DNA from: Teichococcus aerophilus
GTDB lineage: Bacteria; Pseudomonadota; Alphaproteobacteria; Acetobacterales; Acetobacteraceae
Assembly (NCBI RefSeq): GCF_014490485.1
Contig: NZ_JACTVA010000004.1
Span: forward strand, 62,001 to 126,000
Direction of reading: 5' to 3'
DNA: 64,000 bases
Shown piece by piece: positions 763 through 62,531 of the stretch. Within the stretch, counting starts at the first letter, position 1; every line of letters starts with the position of its first letter. The notes under the pieces are model-generated. The model saw nothing but the letters and a program-made list of their open reading frames with translations. It ran no database searches and was not told where the DNA came from. Position numbers and translations under genes: made by a program.

Positions 763-858
763 GGCGCCGGGAAGGGACATCTTCCCTCTGGCGAATTGGG
801 GAGCTCCGGTCCCCCCCTGGCGCTTGGGGCCGATCGACATTCGGCTGAGGGCGGGAGG

Positions 859-1106
859 GAAGGTCAGGGGAAAGAATCCCGCTGCTTAAACGTATACGTT
901 TACACCACCTTTTTCTGTCAGTTGGCGTAGGTCTTGATGACCGGTAGCTGCGCCCGTGAGACAGATCACAGGCCACCTCAGCTCAACCATCAGCCTCCGG
1001 TGTGACTCTGTTCTTGGCCTGGAAAGGCCAACGCCGCATCGCCCACACCCGAAATACTTACAGAAGAAAGAAGGGGTCCGGGGAATTCCTTCCCCGGCCT
1101 TTCCTG
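859..1106. repeat. Paired palindromic element F (degenerate copy)
   Basis: The interval between two converging genes (763-1213) holds no gene. It holds a left unit (859-882, GGTCAGGGGAAAGAATCCC) whose right half is eroded, and an intact right unit (about 1061-1106) in reverse orientation with an AAGAAAGAAGGGG run and the palindrome GGGGAATTCCTTCCCC. Total length is 248 bp, the same as elements A, B and C. The inside carries CAACCATCAG and CTCCGG, which weakly echo the conserved core of A-C. The right unit lies about 110 bases beyond the stop of the leftward hydrolase gene and could act as its terminator. Confidence 0.6.
888..903. promoter_or_regulatory. 16-bp perfect palindrome, function unknown
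   Basis: TAAACGTATACGTTTA is a perfect palindrome, locally AT-rich within a GC-rich genome, and looks like a repressor operator. It lies inside repeat element F where the right half of the left hairpin would be, between two converging genes, so it has no obvious promoter to control. Confidence 0.35.
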
Positions 1107-13135: not shown

Positions 13136-13141
13136 CGAAGG

Positions 13142-13385
13142 AAGGCCGGGGAAGGAATTCCCCGGACCCCTTCTTTTCTTTCTTCGAGAAAGAAATGGGC
13201 CCTCAGCCGCCGAAGAGCGCCGCTGATTATATCATTTCAGCAGCGCAGGCTGAACCCTCAGTCGCCGGAGGTCCAGGACCTCCGGAGCGCCCCAGCCTTG
13301 GCCTGACAGCACACCCTCTCCAGCCGCCCACCCGCAAACTGAGAGAAAAGAAGAAGGGGGCTGGGGAATTCTTTCCCCAGCCTTC
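13142..13385. repeat. Paired palindromic element A (244 bp)
   Basis: The left unit (13142-13185) has the palindrome GGGGAAGGAATTCCCC inside a GGCC...GGACC frame followed by CCTTCTTTTCTTTC. The right unit (13341-13385) is its inverted counterpart with a purine run before the palindrome. Between them lies a core, GGCTGAACCCTCAGTCGC followed by GGAGGTC...GACCTCC, that recurs in elements B (inverted) and C. The left unit starts about 6 bases after the nrdB stop and is terminator-like. The right unit points away from trpL, so it does not end any leftward gene; this argues for a mobile pair rather than two independent terminators. Confidence 0.8.
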
Positions 13386-13439
13386 GGCGCCCGCCCCGCC
13401 GTCCCGTTCCGAATTATCAACGAATCTGCAACGACCCCC

Positions 13440-17723: not shown

Positions 17724-17730
17724 GGCGGGG

Positions 17731-18086
17731 AAAGGCCAGGGGAAGGAATTCCCCTGGCCCCCTTCTTTCTTCTGCGAGTTCTGGCTTCGGGCGGAAGGCA
17801 GGCGTTGACGCTGTTGGATTCAGCCTTGGCGCCGCAGGCATGAATTCCATCAAGCAGGAAATGCCGGGACTGCGTCCGTCAAGATGCAGGGCCAATAGGC
17901 CCTCGGTCCATGTCAAACCAACGACATGCGCCCAACGGCTGACATCTGATCAGAGTAATCCAACACCAGGCCTGACCCCTGGCAGGCGACAACGCCTACA
18001 CTGACAGACAGGTGCCGCAAAAAGCGCACCCCAAACACCGCAGAAAGAAAAGAAGGGGGGTCTGGGGGGAATTCATTCCCCCCAGT
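17731..18086. repeat. Paired palindromic element D (356 bp)
   Basis: The left unit (17731-17774) has CCAGGGGAAGGAATTCCCCTGG plus CCCCCTTCTTTCTTC; the right unit (18041-18086) is inverted with GGGGGGAATTCATTCCCCCC. It fills the space between two converging genes, each unit lying right at a gene end, so it can terminate both. Its interior is longer than in A-C and does not share their core. Confidence 0.7.
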
Positions 18087-18095
18087 TCCAGCCTC

Positions 18096-19079
18096 TCAAT
18101 CCACCGTCGCGCCCGACTGCCGCACAACCTCCGCCCAGCGCCCCATATCCGCCTCGTGCACACGGCGGAACGCCGCGGGCGAGGGGTCTTCGGCCGGCGT
18201 GATGCCCTGGCTCGTTACCAGCCACTGGCGGAATTCCGGCTGGCTGATGATGCGGATGACCTCCTGGCTGACCCGCGCCTGGATCGGCGCCGGCAGGTTC
18301 GGCGGTGCCAGCAGCCCGTACCAGGTGCTGCTGGAGAAGCCGGGCAGCCCGCAGGCCTCGGCCACGGTCGGCACGTCCGGCAGGGCGGGCAGGCGGGCGG
18401 GGGTGCTCACGGCCAGGGCGCGCACCTGGCCCTGCTGCACGGCGCCGATGCTGGGGCCGCTCTGGTTGAAGAAGAACGCCACCTCGCCGGCCAGCAGCGC
18501 CGCCATGGCCGGGCCCTGGCCGCGATACGGCACATGCACCACGTCCAGCCCCGCCGCGCTGGCCAACTGCACGCCGGCCAGGTGGGTGGAGGCGCCATTG
18601 CCGGTGGAGCTGTAGTTCAGCCGACCCGGCTGCGCCTTTGCCATGGCGATCAGGTCCTGGCAGGTGGCCAGGCCCGGATACTTCACCGGGTTCACCAGCA
18701 GCACGTTGGGCACGTCACCCAGCAGAGCGATATGCGTCACGTCCCGGAACGGGTCGAAGGTCAGGCTGCGATACAGCGCGGCATTGATGGCGTGGGTGCC
18801 GGCGGTGGCCAGCAGGAAGCTGTAGCCATCCGGCCGCGCCTTCGCCACCAGCTCGGACGCGATGTTGCCGCCGGCGCCGGTGCGCGGCTCGACGACGACG
18901 GGCACGCCCAGCGCCTGGCTCAGCGGCTCGGCGATCTTACGGGCATAGATGTCGGTGCCGGCGCCACTGGGGAAGCCGCCATAGATGGTGATGGCGCGGC
19001 TCGGCCAGTTATCCTGGGCCTGGGCGGTGGAGATGGCCGGCACCAGCAGGGCCAGCAGCGGAAGGGCGAAGCGAAGCAT
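18096..19079 (-). CDS. Bug-family tripartite tricarboxylate transporter receptor
   Basis: A 327-residue periplasmic binding protein of the Bug (TctC) family. It has a Sec signal (MLRFALPLLALLVPAISTAQA), then the standard start WPSRAITIYGGFPSGAGTD and the loop GAGGNIASELVAKARPDGY. Bug receptors bind carboxylates such as organic acids, amino acids or nicotinate for TctAB-type carriers, but most, like this one, have no carrier genes beside them. It is the last gene of the leftward catabolic cluster, 106 bp after the racemase, and may bring in the substrate of that cluster. Confidence 0.88.
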   Translation of the reverse strand: MLRFALPLLALLVPAISTAQAQDNWPSRAITIYGGFPSGAGTDIYARKIAEPLSQALGVPVVVEPRTGAGGNIASELVAKARPDGYSFLLATAGTHAINAALYRSLTFDPFRDVTHIALLGDVPNVLLVNPVKYPGLATCQDLIAMAKAQPGRLNYSSTGNGASTHLAGVQLASAAGLDVVHVPYRGQGPAMAALLAGEVAFFFNQSGPSIGAVQQGQVRALAVSTPARLPALPDVPTVAEACGLPGFSSSTWYGLLAPPNLPAPIQARVSQEVIRIISQPEFRQWLVTSQGITPAEDPSPAAFRRVHEADMGRWAEVVRQSGATVD

Positions 19080-22431: not shown

Positions 22432-24083
22432 AAGGGCGCGCCTTCCGGCATGTCCTTGCCCACGGAGAGCGCGCGCGGGTCGAGGAAGCAATGCAGGATC
22501 GCCGGCTTGCCGGAGGCCACGGCGCGCTGGAAGGCGGGCGCGAACTCCTCTGTCCGCCGCACCGTCTCGCCATGGCCGCCGAAGGCGGTGGCATAGGCGG
22601 CGAAGTCCGGGTTCCGCAGCTTGGTGGCGGAGACGCGGCCGGGATAGTCGCGCTCCTGGTGCATGCGGATGGTGCCGTACATGCCGTTGTCGATCACCAG
22701 GATCACCAGCGGGATGTCATGCTGCACGGCGGTCGCGAATTCCTGGCCGTTCATCAGGAAGTCGCCGTCGCCGGCAATCACCACCACCGTGCTCTCCGGC
22801 TTCTGGCGCTTCGCCATCACGCCGGCCGGCACGCCATAGCCCATGGAGCCCGAGGTCGGCGCCAGCTGGGTACCAAGCTGCGAGAAGCGCCAGTGCCGGT
22901 GCATCCAGCCGGCGAAATTGCCGGCGCCATTGCACAGCACCGTGTCGCCCGGCAGGTTCTCGTTCAGCCAGCGCACCACTTCACCGTACTGGAACTCGCC
23001 CGGCAGCGTGCGCGGCTTGCCGGAGACGTCCAGATACGCGGCATGGGCCGGCGCCACGCTCTCCGCCCAGGCCGGCGTGCCCTTCGGCGCCAGGCCGGAC
23101 AGCGCGGCCACGAAGCTGCGCGGCGAGACCTGGATGGCCAGCGTCGGCGCATAGACGCGGCCGAGTTCCTCGGCACCCGGATGCACATGCACCAGCGTCT
23201 GCTTCGGCACCGGGATGTTCAGCATGGTGTAGGAGCTGGAGGGCATCTCCGACATGCGGCCACCCACCAGCAACAGCAGGTCGGCCTCCTTCACCAGGCC
23301 CGACAGCTTGGCGGAGGGGCCGATGCCGAGGTCGCCGACATAGCAGGGATGGTCCCAGCGGAACCGGTCCGCGCGGCGGAAGGAGGTGCAGACCGGCAGC
23401 GACCAGCGCGTGGCGAACTCGCCCATCGCGTCCACCGCCGCCTGGTCCCAGCCCGAGCCGCCAAGGATCACCACCGGCTGCTTCGCCTGCGCCAGCAGCC
23501 CTTCCAGGGAGGCGAGGTCGGCGGCGGAGGGCGCGGGCTGCGCCGGCTCCACCCGCGGCACATCCTGCACCTCGGCCATCGCCACCAGCATCTCTTCCGG
23601 CAGCGCGATCACCACCGGGCCGGGGCGGCCCTGCATGGCGACGCGGAAGGCGCGGCCGACGAGCTCCGGAATCCGGTCCGGCGTGTCGATCTCGGTGGTC
23701 CACTTGGTCATGGAGCCGAAGACGGCGCGGTAATCCAGTTCCTGGAACGCCTCGCGCTCCCGCATGCCGACCTCGATCTGGCCGACGAACAGGATCATCG
23801 GCGTCGAATCCTGCATGGCGATGTGCACGCCATGGCTGGCATTGGTGGCGCCGGGGCCGCGCGTGACGAAGCACACGCCGGGCCGCCCGGTCAGCTTGCC
23901 ATAGGCCTCCGCCATGATGGCCGCGCCGCCTTCCTGGCGGCAGGTCAGCACGTCGATCTTGGCATCGTGCAGCGCGTCCAGCACGGCGAGGTAGCTCTCG
24001 CCCGGCACGCAGGTCACGCGCTCCACGCCCTGCGCGAGCAGCTGGTCGACCAGGATCTGGCCTCCGGTGCGGGCGGCGCTCAC
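22428..24083 (-). CDS. Thiamine-diphosphate enzyme, acetolactate synthase-like
   Basis: A 551-residue enzyme with the three domains of the acetolactate synthase/decarboxylase family. Glu51 in TCRQEGGAA activates the cofactor; the central domain (about 190-330) is the transhydrogenase-like fold; the C-terminal AGDGDFLMNGQEFATA is the GDG...N thiamine-diphosphate/Mg motif. It probably acts on a 2-oxo acid, by decarboxylation or carboligation. The product of the adjacent flavoenzyme or aminotransferase would be such a compound. A regulatory subunit gene is absent, which speaks against branched-chain biosynthesis. The GTG start overlaps the aminotransferase stop (GTGA). Confidence 0.85.
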   Translation of the reverse strand: MSAARTGGQILVDQLLAQGVERVTCVPGESYLAVLDALHDAKIDVLTCRQEGGAAIMAEAYGKLTGRPGVCFVTRGPGATNASHGVHIAMQDSTPMILFVGQIEVGMREREAFQELDYRAVFGSMTKWTTEIDTPDRIPELVGRAFRVAMQGRPGPVVIALPEEMLVAMAEVQDVPRVEPAQPAPSAADLASLEGLLAQAKQPVVILGGSGWDQAAVDAMGEFATRWSLPVCTSFRRADRFRWDHPCYVGDLGIGPSAKLSGLVKEADLLLLVGGRMSEMPSSSYTMLNIPVPKQTLVHVHPGAEELGRVYAPTLAIQVSPRSFVAALSGLAPKGTPAWAESVAPAHAAYLDVSGKPRTLPGEFQYGEVVRWLNENLPGDTVLCNGAGNFAGWMHRHWRFSQLGTQLAPTSGSMGYGVPAGVMAKRQKPESTVVVIAGDGDFLMNGQEFATAVQHDIPLVILVIDNGMYGTIRMHQERDYPGRVSATKLRNPDFAAYATAFGGHGETVRRTEEFAPAFQRAVASGKPAILHCFLDPRALSVGKDMPEGAPL

Positions 24084-29958: not shown

Positions 29959-30060
29959 GGGTGATGGCTTGCGCGGCTGAAGGTCCGTATCGGATCACGC
30001 TTCCGGCTGATCCAGCCTGGCTGAGGACGGGCCGATCGGCATCTGGCGGGGGGCGGAGGG

Positions 30061-30439
30061 ACGGTCAGGGGAAGGAATTCCCCTGAAACCCCATCTTCTT
30101 TTTGCCAGTTGGCTTTTGGACCGGCTGGCGGGGCGATTGCGAAATTAAGGACGGCTTCTGAAGTCTGCGGGCTGCGGGCTGCGGGCGGGGTAGGGATTAT
30201 TTGCGTAGCGCAGAGGCGCCCTGGCCAAATGCAGGGACACTGCACAAGCCGCCGACAAAGCTGGGACACAGAGAGGCTGAGACGCCCGACCCGGCAGGCT
30301 CCACGAGCTGCCGAGGCTGCACCGTCCGTCACCAGCCGCCGGCACGGCCCCGGCGTGAAGAACCAGAGTTTCCACAGGCACAACCAGGAAACGCGCAGCA
30401 GAAAAGAAGGGGTCCGGGGAACTCTTTCCCCGGTCTTCC
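30061..30439. repeat. Paired palindromic element E (379 bp)
   Basis: The left unit (30061-30112) has TCAGGGGAAGGAATTCCCCTGA then CCCCATCTTCTTTTT; the right unit (30400-30439) is inverted with AAAAGAAGGGGTCCGGGGAA. It lies between the converging GGDEF-EAL and galE genes and can terminate both. The interior contains CTGCGGG three times in tandem near 30165 and does not share the A-C core. Nothing else is seen in the gap 29959-30489. Confidence 0.7.
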
Positions 30440-34168: not shown

Positions 34169-34200
34169 CGGAGCTCGCTGACCGTTGCACGCAGTTCAGG

Positions 34201-34448
34201 GAAGGCCGGGGAAAGAATTCCCCGGACCCCTTCTTTTTCTTTTTCGAGTTCTTCTGGGTGTGGCTGCCGAGGGCGTGGTCCTGAGAGACGGCTGGCTGCG
34301 CCGGAAGTCCTAGACCTCCGGCGACTGAAGGTTCAGCCCGCGCGGCCTGTATTTAAAATCATCACGGGGCATCCGCTCTCAGCCTTGAAGCGCCACGCCA
34401 AACTCGAAGAAAAAAGAAGGGGTCTGGGGAATTCATTCCCCAGCCTTC
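34201..34448. repeat. Paired palindromic element B (248 bp)
   Basis: The left unit (34201-34246) has GGGGAAAGAATTCCCC with the frame GGCC...GGACCCC and TTCTTTTTC; the right unit (34404-34448) is inverted. The interior holds the family core in inverse orientation relative to A and C: GACCTCCGGCGACTGAAGG followed by TTCAGCC and an ATTTAAAAT stretch. It fills the space between two converging genes, with each unit next to a gene end. Confidence 0.8.
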
Positions 34449-34468
34449 CCGCTTCGCCACACCCGCCA

Positions 34469-45363: not shown

Positions 45364-45383
45364 CCTGAGTCGTTGGTGGGGGA

Positions 45384-45629
45384 GAAGGCCGGGGAAGGAA
45401 TTCCCCGGACCCCTTCTTTCTTTTCTGCAAGTTTGGCGTGACGCTTCAGGACTGAGAACGGACGCTGCTAGATTTTAGTAATGGGCCATGCTGGCTGAAC
45501 CGTCAGTCGCCAGAGGTCTATGACCCCTGGTGCACCCAGCCGTCCCCCAAGACCGCCTTTCCAACAGCCACACCGCCAAAACTCGAAAAAGGAAAAGAAG
45601 GGGCCCGGGGAATTCTTTCCCCGGCCTTC
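45384..45629. repeat. Paired palindromic element C (246 bp)
   Basis: The left unit (45384-45430) has GGCCGGGGAAGGAATTCCCCGG plus ACCCCTTCTTTCTTTTC; the right unit (45585-45629) is inverted. The interior carries the family core in the same orientation as A: GGCTGAACCGTCAGTCGCC, then AGAGGTC...GACCCCTGG, preceded by GATTTTAGTAA. It lies 20 bases after the TetR stop; the next gene is also rightward, so the right unit does not end any gene. The rest of the gap up to 45839 shows nothing. Confidence 0.8.
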
Positions 45630-45839
45630 CTGCCCCATCGCCTTCGATGCCGGTGCACAGACGTCCCAGCGGTGCCCCGGCCAATCAGAAGCCCATGTCA
45701 TTCCGATGTAAGAGGCATCGAGCCTGGCTGGGGGACAGCGCTCCGCAGGGCTGGACGCTACCGGCCGGCGGAAGTGCGTATCCCGGACTGCGTGGGTGAC
45801 GCCGATGGCGCCCCGCCCGGCGCGGTGCGATGAAGGGGC

Positions 45840-60080: not shown

Positions 60081-62531
60081 TCAGGGGGCTCCGGCACCCG
60101 TCAGGTGGCAGATCCGGGTGGTGCCGCCATCGGGCGAGTAGATGAGCAGGGAGGCCACGCCGCCGGCGCGGATGCGGGTGAAGCCATCGGTGTTGGTGGG
60201 CGCGGTGTTGACGGTGAAGCCGGAGAGCGTCAGCGCCAGGTCGGTGGCCATGCGGTTGACGACGACGCAGGAGAAGCCGTCCCCCGTATTGGCCCAGCTC
60301 AGTGAAAGGGTGGTGCCGTTGTTGGCGATCAGCATCCGTGCGTTGTGGCTGGCGTAGGTCAGCGCGGTGGCGGAGGAGAGCAGCAGGGTTGCCATCCGCC
60401 GTTCGGTGAACTGGCCGTCCACATAGCGCTTGGTGGCGGCGTGCTGGTTGATGGTGGGGTCCGCCGGCAGCACCAGCGGGCCGGCGAGGGTAGCGGTGCC
60501 GGAGGAGGCGATGCGGAAGCGCTCGGCCACCGTGCCGCCGGAGCGGGTCTCGAACACCAGCGCGCCGGCCTCGCTGCCGTTGCCGACCGTCTCGGCGATG
60601 GCGGCGACGCGGGCGAAGGTCTGCTCGGTGCCGGCCGCGTTGTTGCCGGTGGCTTCCAGCACCGCCAGCCGGTCGTTGGCGGCGGGGCTGGCGGAGAGGC
60701 GGCGCAGCTTCAGCGTCTGCGGCTGCGTCATGCCGGTGCCGCCGAGGCTGAGGGCCGCGTTCGGGTTATTGGTGCTGTCGCCGGCGAAGTTCACCTCGGT
60801 GCCGGAGAGGGTGAAGCTGGCGGCCGGCACGTCCGCGGTGTTGTGCAGGCGGAGCTGGGCGCCGCTGCCGGTGCCGCGCCGGTGCAGGTTGATGGCGCCA
60901 TCGGTATCGGCGGAGAGGCGGGTCTCGATCGCCGCGTTGGCGGAGACGGAGGCGATTTCCACCCGGCCGGCGGCGACGCGGTTGACCGTGCCGCTGGCGG
61001 TGCGGTTGGCCGCCAGCAGCAGCCGTTGCATCGCTGCCGCGCTATCGGCCGTGTAGGTGATCTGCGAGGTGTCGCAGCCGCTGACGATGACGTTGCCGGC
61101 GCTTTCCCCGATATGGATGGAGGAGAGGGTGGCGTTGCCGGTGCCGGCGACGAAGGTGAAGTCGCAGCCGATGAAGGAGACCTGGCCGTCGATGATCTCC
61201 GCCACGCGGCGGGCGCCGCCGGTGACGTCGACACCGATGAACTCCTGCTGCTCGGTGTCCGTGCTGGACATCTGCACCGAGACGCCCTTGGAGGACAGGA
61301 AACCGCCGACGAACTTGTTGCGCTGCGCCGTGCCGCTGATGCGGACGCCGATGGTCGTCGGGTCCGCGGCATCCACCCAGCCATCGGCGCCGCAGTTGAA
61401 GAAGCCGCAGGCGTGCACGGCGTCCTGGATGTCGAAGCCGATCTCATGGCCGTATTCGAAGCAGTTCTGCAGCACCGTCATGTCCGCGCTGGCGATGACG
61501 AAGGCGCTGCCGAGGCGCCGGTTGGGCTGGATGTACACCGCGCCGCCGGAGTTCCAGCCGGCGGCGTAGGTGGAGTCGTTCAGGTCTACCGTGGTGGTAT
61601 TCACCACCGTGACGGTCCAGCGGCCGTAGAGGCTGGGGGCGCCGCTGCTGCGGACCTCGGCGATGTTGATGAGGTCGCCGGTCTGCAGGCTGTGGGCGCT
61701 GGCCATGCTGATGCGGAAGCGGCCGGCACCGTTGTCGGTGACGTTGCCGATGATGATGCGGGTGTTGGACCAGATGCGGGAGGTGGTGACCAGCGGGTGC
61801 CAGTTGACCTCGCTGATGCGGCAGACATCGAAGGCGCGGCCGAGATAGAGGCCGTTGCGGCAATCCCCGGTGACGTCCTTGACCCGCAGGCGCGCGTTGC
61901 CTTCGCTGTAGATGCCCCAGTGGAAGCCGAGGATCAGCAGGCCGCACAGCGTGGCGTCGGCGCCGTTGCCGGCGGTGTTGCCGCCGCCGCCATCGCCCAC
62001 CGTGATGGCGGTGCCTGCGAAGGCGGCGGCCGCGTCCAGCCCCTGGCGGAGGTTGCCCGGCGTGGTCAGGCCCCGGCGCAGGATGGCCAGGCCGTCCACG
62101 CCGGCATTGCGTTGCACGCGGATGGTGCGGGCGGGGTCCAGCAGGATGGCGTAGTTGACCGTGGTGAAGTTGCCGTCCACGCGCCAGCCGCCGGCGCTGG
62201 CGCGGCCGCGCAGGAACACGCCGTTCTTCACCGTCAGATCCGCCGCCGCCACCAGGTAGCGGCGCGGGCCCAGCAGCACGGTGCCGCCGCCGAGGGCGGC
62301 CGCGGCATCGATGGCGGCCTGGATGGCGGCGGTATCGTCCGTCGTGCCATTGCCGATGGCGCCGTAGTCCCGCACATGCACGGAGCGGTCGGTCAGCATG
62401 GCGGCGCGCATCTGGCCCAGCGTGGTGCGGCGCGTGGTGGCCAGCGCGTTGGCGCCCTGCACCAGCGGCGCGAAATCGGCATCGGCCAGGGTGGTGGCGG
62501 CGGGAAGTTCAGAGATCTTGACGTCAGGCAT
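60081..62531 (-). CDS. Phage tailspike-like protein with pectate-lyase beta-helix
   Basis: An 816-residue protein. The first 45 residues (MPDVKISELPAATTLADADFAPLVQG) are the usual virion-attachment start of tail fibres. VRDYGAIGNGTTDDTAAIQAAIDAA (about 53-77) opens a right-handed beta-helix of the pectate-lyase 3 type, continuing to about 500, which in tailspikes binds or cuts surface polysaccharide. The tail (about 500-816) is beta-rich with repeated short Gly/Ala/Thr segments and includes INQHAATKRYVDGQ, a trimerisation-type stretch seen in fibres. It is the largest protein of the module. A host-encoded glycan would be its target. Confidence 0.8.
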   Translation of the reverse strand: MPDVKISELPAATTLADADFAPLVQGANALATTRRTTLGQMRAAMLTDRSVHVRDYGAIGNGTTDDTAAIQAAIDAAAALGGGTVLLGPRRYLVAAADLTVKNGVFLRGRASAGGWRVDGNFTTVNYAILLDPARTIRVQRNAGVDGLAILRRGLTTPGNLRQGLDAAAAFAGTAITVGDGGGGNTAGNGADATLCGLLILGFHWGIYSEGNARLRVKDVTGDCRNGLYLGRAFDVCRISEVNWHPLVTTSRIWSNTRIIIGNVTDNGAGRFRISMASAHSLQTGDLINIAEVRSSGAPSLYGRWTVTVVNTTTVDLNDSTYAAGWNSGGAVYIQPNRRLGSAFVIASADMTVLQNCFEYGHEIGFDIQDAVHACGFFNCGADGWVDAADPTTIGVRISGTAQRNKFVGGFLSSKGVSVQMSSTDTEQQEFIGVDVTGGARRVAEIIDGQVSFIGCDFTFVAGTGNATLSSIHIGESAGNVIVSGCDTSQITYTADSAAAMQRLLLAANRTASGTVNRVAAGRVEIASVSANAAIETRLSADTDGAINLHRRGTGSGAQLRLHNTADVPAASFTLSGTEVNFAGDSTNNPNAALSLGGTGMTQPQTLKLRRLSASPAANDRLAVLEATGNNAAGTEQTFARVAAIAETVGNGSEAGALVFETRSGGTVAERFRIASSGTATLAGPLVLPADPTINQHAATKRYVDGQFTERRMATLLLSSATALTYASHNARMLIANNGTTLSLSWANTGDGFSCVVVNRMATDLALTLSGFTVNTAPTNTDGFTRIRAGGVASLLIYSPDGGTTRICHLTGAGAP

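Follow-up and report, generated by a model that had tools for sequence, protein, structure and literature searches.

A dispersed small repeat behind genes of Teichococcus aerophilus with inward-facing, terminator-like ends

Behind nrdB of Teichococcus aerophilus lies an interval of about 250 bp that is framed by two inverted palindromic units. Does it consist of ordinary terminators, or is it one copy of a discrete element, and what could such an element do behind genes? The interval belongs to a stretch of 64,000 nucleotides (NZ_JACTVA010000004.1, positions 62,001 to 126,000), hereafter the window, from which we followed it into the whole 5.66 Mb genome (G000) and into related genomes. A first-pass annotation of the window had grouped three such intervals (copies A, B and C) as an element with shared ends and a shared core in both orientations. 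The sequences of A, B and C were found at the places it had named, each with a match to a profile built from 40 aligned copies (Table 1), and the full-length consensus of these 40 copies bears out the common ends and core. A, B and C are members of a single family with a length of about 246-250 bp. The interval 859-1106, read earlier as a decayed copy (F), was recovered as such with slightly shifted borders. Two paired-end elements in the window are additional to those annotated before; an interior-only profile detected no A/B/C-related interior in either, and the one starting near 30046 has a core trace with 3 mismatches at 30315-30333. It had also been remarked that the right units of A and C face no gene end. 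This is correct, as both copies lie in gaps between tandem genes, so that the right unit faces the start of the next gene.

Table 1. Positions of element copies and their parts in the window
Feature	Position	Strand	Basis or remark
Copy A, intact element	13140..13386	+	profile match, 178.7 bits
Copy A, surroundings	nrdB ends 13135; anthranilate/aminodeoxychorismate-synthase-like gene starts 13641		Pfam
Copy A, left end unit	13141..13181	+	bulged hairpin (GAAGG + 8-bp stem), then T-rich run inward
Copy A, conserved core	13248..13297	+	GGCTGAACC-N-TCAGTCGCC, then GGAGGTC-NNN-GACCTCC; alignment
Copy A, core match	13248-13266		0 mismatches
Copy A, right end unit, inverted, inward T-run	13345..13385	-	unit match 13351-13382 (-)
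Copy B, intact element	34200..34449	-	profile match, 256.7 bits
Copy B, surroundings	stops 34168 and 34469		convergent genes
Copy B, core motif	34320..34338	-	0 mismatches
Copy C, intact element	45383..45630	+	profile match, 246.2 bits
Copy C, surroundings	TetR-like gene ends 45363; DUF938 gene starts 45840		
Copy C, core motif	45493..45511	+	0 mismatches
Copy F, decayed element	858..1103	+	profile match, 61.5 bits; right unit 1069-1103 intact
Paired-end element, 368 bp	about 17730..18097	.	profile matches at both ends
Paired-end element, 394 bp	about 30046..30439	.	profile matches at both ends

The genome contained 257 exact occurrences of the end-unit pattern, 135 in forward and 122 in reverse orientation (backward control, 0), and 99 of the core hairpin pattern (control, 0). 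Within a 464 kb sample, 122 end units scored at least 18 bits, and none did so in the shuffled control. Statistics were taken from a sample of 1.227 Mb (21.7% of the genome), whose contigs were partly picked for carrying copies and whose densities are not scalable. There the profile gave 274 non-overlapping matches, 147 of them over the full span, and none in the reversed sequence. The full-span matches ranged from intact to decayed, with 93 at 150 bits or more and 54 below. With copy A as the query against its own genome, full-length relatives appeared at 73-76% identity among the 40 candidates scored, A included. The earlier view of a discrete, dispersed, non-autonomous element is upheld by 93 intact copies within the 1.23 Mb, by one pair of copies that are 97.2% identical and by the absence of 8 of 12 copies from a relative (the last two described below). 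The element exists, is scattered through the genome and copied, and its borders are sharp. Ordinary, unrelated terminators that are alike by chance would account for terminator-like ends and for nothing further; the full-length consensus with its shared core, the zero controls and the 97.2% identical pair rule this out for practical purposes.

The alignment of 40 copies gave the consensus end GGAAGGC[C/T]GGGGAA-NGAA-TTCCCC[G/A]GACCCCTTC-T-run, after which come about 70 nt, the core, about 40 nt and the inverted end. The consensus end folds as GGAAGG-CCGGGGAA-loop-TTCCCCGG-bulge ACC-CCTTCT and then the T-run, which corresponds to a stem of 14 pairs with a 3-nt bulge (-20.8 kcal/mol) and with TTTTTTTCTG directly after it. 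We scored the T-runs on 82 anchored copies, that is 164 ends, of which 150 were scorable; 11 of the 93 copies were dropped by anchoring rules or at contig edges. Reading inward, the 9 nt that follow the stem contained 5 or more T at all 150 scored ends and 6 or more at 146. The corresponding controls gave 6 of 164 for tails read outward and 1.95% for random intergenic 9-mers. The hallmark of a terminator, a GC-rich hairpin directly followed by a T-run, is present at these ends if the 3-nt bulge is allowed; in A, B and C, a generic bulge-free scan misses most ends (none found in B or C, and only the right end in A), so the terminator assignment depends on accepting this bulge. The first-pass annotation had set a discrete element against chance terminators. 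The element stands, but the opposition to terminators does not, since the end units look like terminators too. With an inward-facing, terminator-like hairpin at each end, the element appears to be a movable double stop signal.

A long end-to-end stem folds very stably, but we rejected it as the selected structure, as the variable pair tracks the local hairpins. The local pairs 9-26 and 237-255 are standard in 38 and 40 of the 40 copies, and C-G has turned into T-A in 5 and 7 copies, respectively; 33 of 40 copies have a standard pair at the long-range positions 9-255. Across the 164 ends, the variable end-stem pair was C-G in 101, T-A in 20 and mixed in 2, with the 41 that misfit the strict pattern left uncounted, and it changes independently at the two ends of one copy. 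Over a 41-pair structure, 96.4% of the cells pair versus 95.8% in shuffles, and 13 cells show a double-sided change versus 3.0, both values being reached by 0 of 500 shuffles. Pairs with a double-sided change numbered 3 versus 2.1, which 167 of 500 shuffles reached and which is thus not above shuffles, so that covariation within the element family rests on few positions. At the variable pair of the core, 54 of 60 scorable copies in G000 have G-C, the rest being A-C (3), G-T, A-G and T-C (1 each); no compensation was seen among these few changed copies of G000.

Inverted paired units (+ then -) stood at 230-265 bp in 81 of 106 pairs. Using an interior profile, we recognized an interior in 94 of the 102 end pairs up to 700 bp apart and none in 8. 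The relation extended to 80 of 81 standard-length pairs and to 14 of 21 pairs of unusual length; the latter figure contradicts the idea that pairs of 266-700 bp mostly enclose unrelated interiors. Ends outlast interiors, by selection or by exchange. These numbers give a faint hint that interiors may be exchanged as modules.

Some copies carried further sequences. A different small repeat, ended by AGAGCA...TGCTCT, lies inside the core hairpin of two copies in G000 (C61:19104-19446 and C72:49362-49693). Two paired-end elements of the same genome (C13:18046-18540 and C58:22293-22715) contain short tandem arrays of CTTGAG-like and CTGGCA-like units, and a near-perfect palindrome around AAACGTATACGTTTAC occurs in or beside the end unit of some older copies (window 880-900; C97 near 121100 and 124400).

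Next to the question of what the element is stands that of whether it moves. For 12 G000 copies, namely A, B and C plus five from contig 54 and four from contig 59, the matching places were sought in a relative, G107. The element was missing for 8 of the 12, with both flanks found for seven and the left flank only for one; one of these eight empty places also lacks about 870 bp of neighbouring sequence. At the place of C54:8847, a different short paired-hairpin element is found in G107 and G269, and 3 of the 12 copies, whose flanks lie apart, received no call. Five further genomes of the genus (L251-L255) likewise have no element behind nrdB. Relatives thus do not always carry the units at the same loci; had they done so, this would have spoken against mobility. 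The first-pass annotation had looked to clean empty sites in close relatives. Empty sites there are, but clean they are not: the gaps between genes have diverged, and the insertion junctions are therefore unreadable.

Two copies in G107, L333 and L338, are 97.2% identical and have unrelated flanks, indicating that about 250-260 bp was copied. In a tree, the 16 copies of G107 form one clade (support 0.91) that is broken only by copy A of G000, and the mean identity is 0.832 within G107, 0.786 within G000 and 0.757 between them. As the highest identity within G000 is 0.919, the expansion in G000 is older. Copying to new places is a reading that these sequence comparisons support. Some insertions are old or have recurred, since a few gene ends carry an element in more than one species. 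The sites of L338, L339 and L336 are occupied in both G107 and G000, the element at the L336 site in G000 being 423 bp long with an interior that is not detectably related; the C59:52091 site holds a short relative in G348 and is empty in G107.

Two observations concern the surroundings of the copies in G107. The genes that flank L338 are 27 kb apart in G000, each beside a copy of its own (C97:112879-113124 and C97:140445-140687), as if a rearrangement had occurred at the elements. Runs of N in or beside the end units at L331, L336, L337 and L343 are probably assembly gaps caused by the repeat.

What kind of enzyme could move such a repeat? A classical MITE, belonging to a cut-and-paste insertion sequence and having terminal inverted repeats of 40-50 bp, would fit the length, the long terminal inverted repeats seen in the consensus and the lack of visible coding capacity; the size falls within the MITE range of 70-300 bp given in the available text of PMC3733652. 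Duplication of the target site upon insertion is a MITE trait according to the available text of PMC3049150. Such duplications at the ends, which the first-pass annotation had suggested looking for, were sought and none emerged: repeats of at least 4 nt flanked 4 of 82 copies versus 4.9 in shuffles, and no fixed-offset excess of flanking repeats was found. Nor did any of the 106 inward-facing end pairs less than 4 kb apart in the 1.23 Mb sample (21.7% of the genome) enclose a coding element or a transposase with these ends; a partner may lie elsewhere in the genome. Taken together, these results make a classical MITE very unlikely. Among the end pairs more than 700 bp apart, two contained ordinary genes and one enclosed an insertion sequence.

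The sole transposase inside a copy is a separate, unrelated insertion with its own ends. It belongs to a small insertion sequence that splits an intact copy on C56 of G000 (sample coordinates 22958-23951, L289-L290) and has the direct repeat AATTTTAA, an 8-bp duplication, on both sides.

Membership in the RAYT-driven REPINs was likewise rejected. The RAYT family PF01797 had no match in any of 14 genomes including that of the element, while 5 of 14 control genomes were positive. A GTAG/CTAC motif lay near 2 of 164 ends and CGTC/GACG near 8 of 164, so no consistent REP tag was found.

To see how far the element reaches, we used 397 genomes of the family from 102 genera. The exact end-unit pattern occurred in 11 genomes of 2 genera and the core pattern in 14 genomes of 2 genera, with a maximum of 84 copies in g4, the second genus. 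The number of exact cores varied from 0 to 99 among species of a single genus. The core in g4 is flanked by other hairpins than in G000, again behind genes, and the right ends show a long stem around an AATTC-containing loop in 16 of 20, this stem being absent in 4. At the free position of the core stem, a Watson-Crick pair was tallied by hand in 104 among the 110 sites listed for the two genera, with at most 10 per genome: G-C in 45, T-A in 55, A-T in 2 and C-G in 2, with T-G in two and no pair in four. Single end units behind genes also occur in a third genus (g28) and in G239, and a Pseudoroseomonas cervicalis plasmid has a single end unit 2-3 nt behind a transporter gene. The viral contigs and phages searched contained no element.

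The placement relative to genes bears most directly on function. Gene calls in the sample came from a home-made codon-usage gene finder (1029 genes, 81% coding), and gaps of 50 bp or more were counted, giving 144 convergent, 375 tandem and 147 divergent ones. The 93 intact copies fell into 42 convergent, 45 tandem and 5 divergent gaps, with 1 at a contig edge and 0 inside predicted genes (convergent versus divergent, Fisher p = 6e-10). When any match was counted, remnants included, 92 of the 144 convergent, 109 of the 375 tandem and 11 of the 147 divergent gaps were occupied. The median distance from stop codon to element was 29 nt, with 72 of 129 distances at 30 nt or less, and in tandem gaps the copy was nearer the upstream stop in 42 of 45 cases. 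Relative to the neighbouring gene, the core pointed one way in 45 of 87 cases, as expected for random orientation. The placement behind genes recurred in two further sets: among 16 copies in G107, 10 were convergent, 5 tandem and 1 divergent; among 20 copies in g4, 9 were convergent and 10 tandem, with 1 left without assignment.

Harmful effects of insertions elsewhere could also produce a preference for gene 3' ends. A purely selfish repeat, REPIN-like or MITE-like and without host function, would owe its position behind genes only to the loss of insertions into genes and promoters, and its T-runs and hairpins would serve transposition. The random orientation of the core, the range from intact (93 full-length at 150 bits or more) to decayed (54 below) and the independent expansion in G107 all agree with this. 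However, the copies cluster within 30 nt of stop codons (72 of 129) and not anywhere in the gap, and each of the 150 scored ends retains its asymmetric, inward T-run. Neither feature is predicted if selection does no more than remove harmful insertions, and we regard a purely selfish repeat as rather unlikely.

The gaps between convergent genes are also where positive supercoils lie, and the element could be a BIME-like chromosome-organising site at which the core palindrome binds a protein (gyrase, IHF-like or other), with the terminators secondary. The occupancy of convergent over divergent gaps (92 of 144 versus 11 of 147, any match) would follow, and so would the retention of the core palindrome across two genera with matching changes (all four pair types, 104 among the 110 sites listed). 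Yet no protein is known to bind the core, and exact-core numbers that vary from 0 to 99 among congeneric species are at odds with a structural site that is essential. We judge this explanation improbable.

The immediate flanks of 82 copies were purine-rich on the left and pyrimidine-rich on the right over about 13 nt. We considered insertion into a pre-existing palindromic terminator and rejected it, as the flanks of one copy were no more complementary to each other than flanks of different copies (duplex energy -12.4 versus -12.7); the absence of the purine/pyrimidine bias at 527 gene ends without the element disfavours it too. The bias belongs at least in part to the element, as the unit copied in G107 includes some of the biased bases.

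We favour, with moderate confidence, a small non-autonomous mobile repeat, REPIN/BIME-like in function, that would act as a double inward terminator. A transcript leaving the neighbouring gene would enter the element, meet the first end hairpin and its T-run, and be released there. Because both ends face inward, transcripts from either side would be stopped, which suits convergent genes. The element would spread by copying to new places through an enzyme, and copies landing behind genes would be tolerated, or kept because they work as terminators. The core, being oriented at random to neighbouring genes, probably has its role in copying, as a recognition hairpin or as a protein site. A broader proposal is offered tentatively and with some doubt: a mobile double terminator family, rather than fixed native terminators, may set the 3' ends of many genes and be renewed between species at the same gene ends, and the core hairpin common to two genera with different ends may be the recognition site of the copying enzyme. 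The large share of genes in this proposal is based on the 92 of 144 convergent gaps of the sample that hold at least a remnant.

If this were true, a spreading repeat would have taken over a visible part of the transcript ends in this bacterium, and the turnover of terminators, the benefit of the element to its host and the source of new terminators would become directly testable by species comparison. The core hairpin, retained in both genera despite their different ends, would point to a way of copying that involves neither RAYT nor target duplication. Annotation of gene ends and prediction of operons should allow for the repeat in species that carry many copies.

Finally, we compared the element with known systems. 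Literature searches for repeats of Roseomonas or Acetobacteraceae and for terminator-carrying small repeats, with subscription journals mostly outside their coverage, gave no matching family, and an Rfam scan of the window gave two tRNAs as its only matches at gathering score and none for the element, in keeping with the first-pass annotation, which knew of no named family. RIME and the A/B/C motifs of rhizobia are palindromic intergenic mosaic elements of an alphaproteobacterium, like the element described here. We know of no paired inward terminator feature in them, a distinction drawn by description and not by sequence. RIME and rhizobial palindromes are mentioned in the available text of PMC2573895.

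In the available text of PMC3733652, REPs are tagged GTAG or CGTC and lie mostly behind genes, and CGTC repeats are missing in Acetobacteraceae. REPINs, in the portions available of PMC8049555 and PMC2817692, are doublets of two inverted REPs with a variable spacer that are moved by RAYT. As described there, they resemble our element in having two inverted palindromic ends, in being non-autonomous, in high copy number, in occurring as single ends too and in the lack of a visible target duplication. The element differs from them in lacking RAYT (0 of 14 genomes) and a consistent GTAG/CGTC tag, and in having a conserved core hairpin of about 50 nt and inward T-runs. BIMEs of enterobacteria, as far as the available text of PMC2817692 goes, are likewise mosaics of palindromes and motifs behind genes, and the segment between the REPs of BIME-1, an IHF site according to that text, is comparable to a functional core. 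Their sequences differ from those of the element, which forms no tandem arrays of alternating REPs. SPRITE of Streptococcus pneumoniae, in the available text of PMC3049150, is a repeat resembling Rho-independent terminators that lies behind genes and is suggested to have been co-opted as terminators. It shares with our element the dispersal, the terminator-like structure and the concentration behind genes, but it is a single terminator-like unit, whereas the element is an inward pair around a core and comes from another phylum. As the element fails the defining tests of REPIN/RAYT and of the classical MITE, we group it with REPINs, BIMEs and SPRITE as a separate, new variant.
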